From Actinoplanes siamensis (GTDB lineage Bacteria > Actinomycetota > Actinomycetes > Mycobacteriales > Micromonosporaceae): a stretch of 64,000 nucleotides of DNA. Within the stretch, counting starts at the first letter, position 1; every line of letters starts with the position of its first letter. The stretch spans positions 91,240 to 155,239 of the forward strand of contig NZ_BOMW01000008.1 in assembly GCF_016862395.1 (NCBI RefSeq), written 5' to 3'. Position numbers and translations under genes: made by a program. Positions 19,907 to 21,745 of this stretch are shown here, piece after piece. The notes below the pieces were generated by a model. The model ran no database searches. It saw nothing but the letters and a program-made list of their open reading frames with translations, and was not told the origin of the DNA.

Positions 19907-20539
19907 TCAAGCGGCGCCGGTGTAGGCGGCGAACGTCGCGGCGGACCGCCTCCGCGCGTCCTGCGGGGCGGTCCCGGAGGCGATGTCCGCCTCGGCCCAC
20001 GCGTCGCTGCTCAGCCGCAGGAAGCGCTTGCCCTCCTCGGAGCCCAGCCAGGCCATGATCGCCTCGGGGTCGCGCGGCGCGTCCGGTGCGGCGAGGTGCA
20101 TGGCCAGCCCGAGCAGCCCGGAGTCCCAGCCCAAGCCGACCGCGCCGGGTCCGAACTGGTCCCAGCGGTCGTCGACGTGCGCGGTGTGCTCCAGAGTGAA
20201 CCGGGTGCGCTCCTCGCCCTCCGGGGTGAGGCGGACCTCGATCCAGCTGATGCCGCCGCCGAACTCCCAGGTGGCGGCGAACGAGCGCGGCTTGTCGCAG
20301 CTGGTGATCGTGCCGCCGGCGTTGCCCTCGAACTGGTACTTCCCGCCCTCGCGCAGCTCCCCGGAGACCGGCAGGAACCAGCGCTCGATGCGCTCCGCGG
20401 TGGTCACCACGTCCCACAGATCGTCCAGGTCGGTGTCGTAGACCTGGCTGATCGTCAGAACCCGGGCCTCGCCGGCCTCCAGGGTCCGGTCGCCCAGCGT
20501 GCGGCGAACGCTGCTGATCTGCTCGGTCACGTCGATCAT
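19907..20539 (-). CDS. SRPBCC/AHSA1-family protein
   Basis: A 210-residue START-like (AHSA1) domain protein: ISQVYDTDLDDLWDVVTTAE, IERWFLPVSGELREGGKYQ, a glycine-rich turn and a closing helix. Such proteins bind hydrophobic ligands or act with ArsR partners; the ligand is unknown. ATG 20539 overlaps the ArsR stop (ATGA). A C-terminal ~60 residues (PEAIMAWLGSEEGKRFLRLS) extends beyond the usual AHSA1 domain, as in related actinobacterial proteins. The pair is a single transcription unit. Confidence 0.87.
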   Translation of the reverse strand: MIDVTEQISSVRRTLGDRTLEAGEARVLTISQVYDTDLDDLWDVVTTAERIERWFLPVSGELREGGKYQFEGNAGGTITSCDKPRSFAATWEFGGGISWIEVRLTPEGEERTRFTLEHTAHVDDRWDQFGPGAVGLGWDSGLLGLAMHLAAPDAPRDPEAIMAWLGSEEGKRFLRLSSDAWAEADIASGTAPQDARRRSAATFAAYTGAA

Positions 20540-20895
20540 CGGGTCTCCTCCAAGCTGTCGGAAGCGGCCAGCCGCCGCTGTCGTTTTCCGCGGGCGACCT
20601 CGGTGGCCATCGCGGCGAGGCGCGGCGTCCAGAACCGCCGGAACCGGCTCAGCCACTCGTCCGCCTGGCGCAGCGCGGTGTCGTCGACCGCGTAGAGCCG
20701 CCGCGCGCCGTCCGGCCGGACGGTGGCGAAGCCGTTGTCCCGCAGCACCTTCAGGTGCTGCGAGACGGCCGGCTGGGAGATGCCGAACTCGGCGCGGATC
20801 ACCGCGGTCACCGCGCCGGAGGTCTGCTCGCCGTCGGCGAGCAGCTCCAGGATGCGGCGCCGGACCGGATCGCCGAGCACGTCGAACGCATGCAC
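20536..20895 (-). CDS. ArsR-family transcriptional regulator
   Basis: A 119-residue winged-helix repressor: FDVLGDPVRRRILELLADGE, recognition helix region GISQPAVSQHLKVLRDNGF, wing TVRPDGARRLYAVD. The metal-binding ELCVCDL motif of the metal sensors is absent, so this is the non-metal subtype usually paired with an AHSA1 protein, as here. It probably represses its own operon through the palindrome at 20918. Normal length. Confidence 0.92.
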   Translation of the reverse strand: MHAFDVLGDPVRRRILELLADGEQTSGAVTAVIRAEFGISQPAVSQHLKVLRDNGFATVRPDGARRLYAVDDTALRQADEWLSRFRRFWTPRLAAMATEVARGKRQRRLAASDSLEETR

Positions 20896-20958: not shown

Positions 20959-20996
20959 GGAAGCGGGCCGGGGGAGTAGGGTCCCGGCCCGCTTCC
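20959..20996 (-). terminator. Strong hairpin terminator after the 58-codon secreted-peptide gene
   Basis: GGAAGCGGGCCGGG (20959-20972) pairs perfectly with CCCGGCCCGCTTCC (20983-20996) around a ten-base loop. It begins 28 bases after the peptide stop and lies upstream of the ArsR promoter, separating the two units. Confidence 0.75.
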
Positions 20997-21024
20997 GCTC
21001 CTGGCCCGCGCAGGGGAGGGCGGG

Positions 21025-21201
21025 TCAGAAGTCGTCGGCCGTCCGGATCCGGGAGCGGATCAACTGGCCGGAGGCGGTCAGCGTGCTCGCCCCGGAGAAG
21101 GAGGCGGCCTCCGCGCTGGCCGGCAGCGCGAAGAACGCCACGGCCGAGGCGGTGGCCACGGCGAACGCCGAGGCCGGAATGACTTTCAAGCTACGCTTCA
21201 A
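21025..21201 (-). CDS. Small secreted peptide (58 aa) under a CebR-like operator
   Basis: A TTG-started frame of 58 codons. The product has a classic Sec signal: basic start (MKRSLK), hydrophobic core (VATASAVAFFAL) and an ASA cleavage site near residue 30. That leaves a 28-residue mature peptide, EAASFSGASTLTASGQLIRS followed by RIRTADDF. AAGGTGA lies eight bases before the TTG. It is supported by its own -35/-10, an operator at the expected start site and a 14-bp terminator. I do not recognise the mature sequence. It could be a true micro-peptide or the 5' remnant of a secreted glycoside hydrolase. The in-frame stop and immediate terminator favour the former. Confidence 0.62.
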   Translation of the reverse strand: MKRSLKVIPASAFAVATASAVAFFALPASAEAASFSGASTLTASGQLIRSRIRTADDF

Positions 21202-21226
21202 CGCTGCGTCACCTTAGGGGAGGGAA

Positions 21227-21246
21227 ATTTGGGAGCGCTCCCAAAT
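21227..21246. promoter_or_regulatory. CebR-type operator palindrome
   Basis: The 14-bp core TGGGAGCGCTCCCA (21230-21243) is identical to the site bound by CebR, the LacI-family cellobiose/cellulose repressor of Streptomyces, and the palindrome extends perfectly to 20 bp. It lies just downstream of the -10 hexamer, where a bound repressor would block transcription of the small peptide gene. No cebR gene is in the window. Confidence 0.85.
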
Positions 21247-21256
21247 CTGGGTGACG

Positions 21257-21285
21257 ACTGTAACCCGCCTCTGGATACGTGTAAA
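21257..21285 (-). promoter_or_regulatory. Sigma-70-like promoter of the small peptide gene
   Basis: On the minus strand TTTACA (21280-21285) and TACAGT (21257-21262) are separated by exactly 17 bases. A start about seven bases further falls at the edge of the CebR-type palindrome. Confidence 0.65.
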
Positions 21286-21298
21286 GATCGCCCCGGGA

Positions 21299-21745
21299 TC
21301 AATCGCATCGCCACGGCCGGCGCGGCCGCGGCTGATGCGACGAGGGCGGAACGGCGGTGGCCGCGGCGGCCAGCGCCGCCGCGGCCACCTTGGCGTCCTT
21401 CAGGTCGGCCGGGTCACGGGTCACCTGGTGGCGCAGCAGCAGCGACTGCCACTGCCGCCGCCAGGCGCGCACGGCCAGTTCGGTGCCGGGGTCGGCGACC
21501 AGGACCATGCAGCCGGCCGCGTCCACCAGCGCGTCCCAGTCGCCGACGTCGCCGGACCGCTCGGCCCGCTCCTGCAGCAGGTCGAAGAGAACTCCCCATC
21601 CGATGACGAGATCGGGGTGGCCCGCCGGGGCCCCGTGCAACAGCCGGTAGATCTCGTCAATGGCGTGCTCGAGGCCGCGGGGGTGCTCCGCGTCCACCGT
21701 GAACGCCACGACGAGGGCCGTGTGGATGAACTCCTCGCCGTCCAT
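21299..21745 (-). CDS. Hypothetical protein, helical repeat-like
   Basis: A 148-residue protein with alternating amphipathic helices (LEHAIDEIYRLLHGAPAG, GWGVLFDLLQERAERSGDV, DWDALVDAAGCMVLVADPG, LLLRHQVTRDPADLKDAKVA). The last phrase resembles the ...D-P-A-D-L-x-x-A... units of TPR regions found in actinobacterial CHAT-domain proteins, so it may be a shortened relative of those. The alanine-rich tail ends in a basic PRPRRPWRCD. It ends 14 bases before the -35 of the peptide promoter. No function can be assigned. Confidence 0.55.
   Translation of the reverse strand: MDGEEFIHTALVVAFTVDAEHPRGLEHAIDEIYRLLHGAPAGHPDLVIGWGVLFDLLQERAERSGDVGDWDALVDAAGCMVLVADPGTELAVRAWRRQWQSLLLRHQVTRDPADLKDAKVAAAALAAAATAVPPSSHQPRPRRPWRCD

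Follow-up and report, generated by a model that had tools for sequence, protein, structure and literature searches.

A comparable gene has been described in Streptomyces scabies. The part of PMC5332605 used here gives the CebR consensus operator, and it describes scab51081, whose product is a secreted GH5-CBM2 cellulase and whose CebR box lies at -54. The same operator letters stand near the start of this GH5-CBM2 gene and of the 58-codon frame in the window, that is, the whole analysed stretch of 64,000 nucleotides from Actinoplanes siamensis, where the palindrome TGGGAGCGCTCCCA equals the consensus as given in that part of the source (PMC5332605). However, scab51081 is a full-length gene from another genus (PMC5332605). 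Among the papers listed in literature searches, none dealt with this locus or with leftover secreted peptides like this one, and those on CebR concern other genera. Within the genus, the CBM2-GH5 cellulase loci of A. cyaneus (L092), A. palleronii (L094), and A. liguriensis (L095) share the promoter, operator, ribosome site, and TTG start with the window, and their signal peptides, C-terminal residues, and neighbouring genes are also like those of the window. These frames have 487-493 residues and keep the middle of the enzyme, whereas the frame in the window has neither domain.

An earlier note on this DNA had listed a promoter, a palindrome, a ribosome site, a 58-codon TTG frame, and a hairpin. 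By sequence reading, all of these parts are present on the minus strand (Table 1). The N-terminus of the frame is probably a signal peptide, as judged from its homology to cellulase signal peptides. The 72-nt stretch bearing the hairpin has a predicted fold of -43.1 kcal/mol (z -3.48), and none of 200 shuffled sequences was equally stable; no T-run was seen by reading after the hairpin in the window. The analyses below indicate that the 58-codon frame is very probably what an in-frame deletion left of a CBM2-GH5 cellulase gene under predicted CebR control, rather than a new peptide gene.

Table 1. Positions of the regulatory parts, the frame, and the neighbouring genes in the window.
Feature	Position	Strand	Remark
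148-aa gene, upstream synteny anchor	21299..21745	-	no Pfam match
Promoter TTTACA-17-TACAGT, sigma-70-type	21257..21285	-	-35 TTTACA 21285-21280, spacer 17 nt, -10 TACAGT 21262-21257; common to intact congener cellulase genes
Exact palindrome TGGGAGCGCTCCCA, predicted CebR operator	21230..21243	-	
Ribosome site AAGGTGA	21209..21215	-	kept in 5/5 aligned intact orthologues
Frame of 58 codons, TTG start	21025..21201	-	by sequence reading
Codons 1-35, TTG start and probable signal peptide of the CBM2-GH5 cellulase	21097..21201	-	by homology
Putative deletion junction, imperfect 13-nt repeat	21097..21109	-	8 intact orthologues are longer here by 1,272-1,311 nt
Codons 36-58 and stop, last 23 residues of the cellulase	21025..21096	-	by homology
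Terminator-like hairpin, 14-bp stem	20959..20996	-	counterparts in G032, G016, G014, and A. cyaneus, by reading
ArsR-type regulator gene, downstream synteny anchor	20536..20895	-	
AHSA1/SRPBCC gene behind the ArsR gene, synteny anchor	19907..20563	-	

The two halves of the peptide match the two ends of one enzyme. The peptide was searched in six frames first against 60 genomes and afterwards against 67 from the genus, and both sets included the window's own genome. In the first search 51 of 60 genomes matched at E <= 1; most of the weak matches looked like chance signal-like stretches and were not counted. In the second, matches were counted only at E <= 1e-4, and 25 of 67 genomes matched. The matching frame is short only in the window's own genome; in the other 24 it has 464-602 residues. 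In the nine best congener matches, the full-length cellulase frames have N-termini that are 67-75% identical to peptide residues 1 to 40-43. In eight genomes the residues from 18, 19, or 24 to 58 have 56-63% identity to the end of the same 490-529-aa frame; in the ninth, G073, the two pieces (70% for residues 1-40 and 68% for residues 31-58) lie within one 514-aa frame. The full-length cellulase at the locus has 482-495 residues in the eight copies measured. Pfam analysis of the orthologous cellulase, made on the G016 copy, identified PF00553 (CBM_2) and PF00150 (Cellulase, GH5). The 58-aa product matched no Pfam family, and contains neither the CBM2 (PF00553) nor the GH5 (PF00150) domain.

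Alignment of the window with five orthologues showed that the -35 and -10 elements, the palindrome, the AAGGTGA site, and the TTG start are conserved. The tails of all five end in SGQLIRSRIRTxDDF-stop, as does that of the window. The palindrome starts 41-45 nt ahead of the TTG start in all eight orthologues measured; in G073 it also precedes the coding sequence, and lies inside the 514-aa frame. Three of the five aligned orthologues have a counterpart of the hairpin, and none was seen in the other two (G023 and G010) within the 110 nt aligned behind the stop. After the cellulase stop in A. cyaneus (after L092:8009), a long inverted repeat (GGCTGGTTCTCATGGTCGTT.. / ..AACGACCATGAGAACCAGCC) was seen by eye between the hairpin and the ArsR gene.

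The 148-aa gene was found in 11 of the 67 genus genomes, including the window's own. It is followed by a long cellulase frame in nine of them, by the 58-codon frame in the window's genome, and by no match in A. regularis (G081). The distance from this gene to the cellulase is about 100-420 nt in all nine. The order of 148-aa gene, cellulase, ArsR gene, and AHSA1 gene is maintained in G016, G014, G023, and G010; in G032 the ArsR match sits on a different contig. Thus the syntenic position, the N- and C-terminal ends, and the regulatory region of the short frame all match an orthologous CBM2-GH5 cellulase gene. Comparison of the congener sequences shows directly that the two ends match, that regulatory parts and synteny are shared, and that the middle is absent.

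The stretch missing from the window relative to the eight orthologues amounts to 1,272-1,311 nt and includes both enzyme domains. Its junction falls at GGCCGCCTCGTTC in the head of the gene in seven of eight orthologues, and at GGCCGGGACGTTC in the tail in three of eight. Across the eight, 8-10 of the 13 nt of this repeat are identical, with 3-6 nt in exact match. An equally good match is reached by 0.06-2.1% of head/tail position pairs, for a repeat that was picked after the junction had been seen and was compared in orthologues, which stand in for the window's own pre-deletion sequence. A short direct repeat likely drove the in-frame deletion of about 1.3 kb, comprising the entire cellulose-binding and catalytic part, and slippage or recombination at the repeat may have been the mechanism. 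Both copies share one reading frame, so an in-frame product would arise without selection for it. The product left would be the enzyme's signal peptide fused to its last 23 residues, in a frame flanked by elements that belong to the enzyme gene, with its promoter, operator, and ribosome site on one side and its likely terminator on the other.

The lost catalytic part was not found elsewhere in the assembly. Of the 30 matches to the full-length query, two were this locus itself and the remaining 28 fell inside residues 9-220 of the query. Five PF00150 genes remain in the window's genome, but at E <= 0.001 the query did not match the catalytic part of any of them. These searches also bear on an assembly error, in which the cellulase would be whole on the real chromosome and reads spanning the short repeat would have been collapsed. 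The genome is a 161-contig draft and the junction does lie on a short repeat, but this repeat is of 13 nt with at most 10 matches. The overlaps usually used by assemblers are far longer. Moreover, the missing catalytic part matches no other contig, and window-specific residues occur on both sides of the junction. The same protein was counted on two contigs, the longest of 311,796 bases compared with 155,239 bases for the contig of the window, which is a further hint against such an error. An assembly error is therefore exceedingly improbable.

The earlier note had taken the unit for a self-contained gene of a small secreted peptide. This is not supported by the comparison: in the congeners the promoter and palindrome are conserved before a long glycoside hydrolase gene, the short frame is not conserved, and the frame appears to be a truncated remnant. 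The note itself had linked this pattern to such a remnant. No conserved short peptide family was found in the protein database, the 60 genomes, or the 67 genus genomes. The protein database search gave one candidate, identical except for the start residue. A 59-aa frame in G001 (E 3.9e-4) was dropped as a short homologue, because it starts at a contig end and is cut by it.

It is very unlikely that the frame is a genuine gene, under selection, for a small secreted peptide that cello-oligosaccharides induce, whether an old one or one exapted from the two ends of the cellulase once the deletion had occurred. The regulatory parts are complete and intact, the junction is in frame, and the tail is strongly conserved, with at least 13 of the last 14 residues the same in the nine relatives. 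However, the regulatory features belong to the enzyme gene, no short homologue was found in the protein database or elsewhere among the 67 genus genomes (E <= 1e-4), and A. regularis has the same cassette without such a frame. Of nine sequences compared, that of the window also has the most new-residue codons, one of them being L9P in the signal peptide. The window branch has five new-residue and three other unique codons, against 12 and 31 summed over eight relatives (Fisher p 0.099); G073 was left out of this count and inspected separately. These counts hint at relaxed constraint on the frame. The frame is still open, its start and ribosome site are intact, and its tail is conserved, so some function may have been retained; a 28-residue peptide (EAASFSGASTLTASGQLIRSRIRTADDF) may be exported. 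It is hardly to be expected that a secreted microprotein was born here, with both ends of an enzyme joined by an accidental in-frame deletion into a functional gene whose 28-residue product is induced by cellobiose and exported, and with promoter, operator, signal peptide, and terminator already in place.

A gene remnant, maybe still transcribed, is the most economical reading. If transcribed, the unit would respond to cello-oligosaccharides by induction, together with the other members of the CebR regulon, and the remnant would at most export a tail peptide of 28 residues, presumably functionless. The case urges caution in annotating small proteins: an enzyme gene minus its middle can look like a short frame with every part in place, from a perfect promoter, operator, and ribosome site to a signal peptide and a terminator.

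A second loss was found in A. regularis DSM 43151 (L093). The interval between the 148-aa gene and the ArsR gene is about 179 nt in this genome and 403 nt in the window. The A. regularis interval has a similar promoter, an exact CebR-type palindrome, and, by reading, a terminator-like hairpin; these parts stand at L093:6395-6640. No matching ribosome site, no cellulase frame, and no remnant frame were found in it. The two loci are the same and both retain the promoter region, palindrome, and hairpin, whereas the whole coding sequence and the ribosome site are gone only in A. regularis. A larger deletion took the whole coding sequence and left a bare regulated stub. Its boundaries differ from those in the window, which indicates at least a separate deletion step. 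In the poorly resolved locus tree the two genomes (G000 for the window and G081) are not joined; a joint clade is not rejected (AU p 0.109), so the independence of the two losses is unproven. Among the 11 Actinoplanes genomes with the locus, one probably CebR-regulated cellulase has been lost in two, and the control region was left both times.

The reading of the palindrome as a CebR-type operator is well supported, both by the consensus in the part of PMC5332605 used here and by the genes at its other sites. At up to two mismatches the window contains one site, where 0.68 would be expected by chance, so there is no surplus within the window. The whole genome has 18 exact palindromes and 29 at up to one mismatch, compared with 0 for the reversed-pattern control. 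Pfam analysis was carried out at nine of the 18 exact sites; the remaining nine are this locus and eight outside the scan. A glycoside hydrolase, LPMO, or cellulase-type gene adjoins seven of the nine scanned sites. Ten frames were scanned at these sites: seven are GH95, CelD/CBM4_9, GH9, two GH6-CBM2, LPMO, and GH5-CBM2, and the other three are a BNR-repeat protein, an alpha/beta hydrolase (on the other side of the GH9 site), and an RCC1 protein. The locus thus has an exact copy at its promoter, in a genome where the palindrome marks cellulolytic genes, and the palindrome here is a well-supported predicted CebR operator.

The operator-promoter stub might also be kept as a decoy that titrates CebR, with the frame irrelevant, which would be compatible with the remnant reading. 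The promoter region and the exact palindrome have outlived the enzyme in two genomes of the genus. On the other hand, with 17 other exact sites in the genome, one more would have a small titration effect; survival of the stub could simply reflect recent loss, and the -10 region of A. regularis already differs. Such a role is highly improbable, and a remnant gene that has kept its control region is the preferred reading.

A CebR/CelR-like repressor is probably present in the genome. There are 32 LacI matches, and two of them, picked by eye, were compared with solved structures. Both are closest to 5ysz, the structure of Thermobifida CelR, at 345 and 325 bits against 145 and 158 for the next best, and they are two candidates for the repressor. 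Of the loci inspected in placing cebR, L125 carries an imperfect site upstream; the frame ahead of L126 looks by eye like a GH1 beta-glucosidase, and no site with up to three mismatches was listed there in 16 kb. In a 3-kb stretch inspected by eye, an exact palindrome at G000:C37:16407 (L111:3001) appears to stand within coding sequence, ahead of a LacI gene, and not at an obvious promoter.
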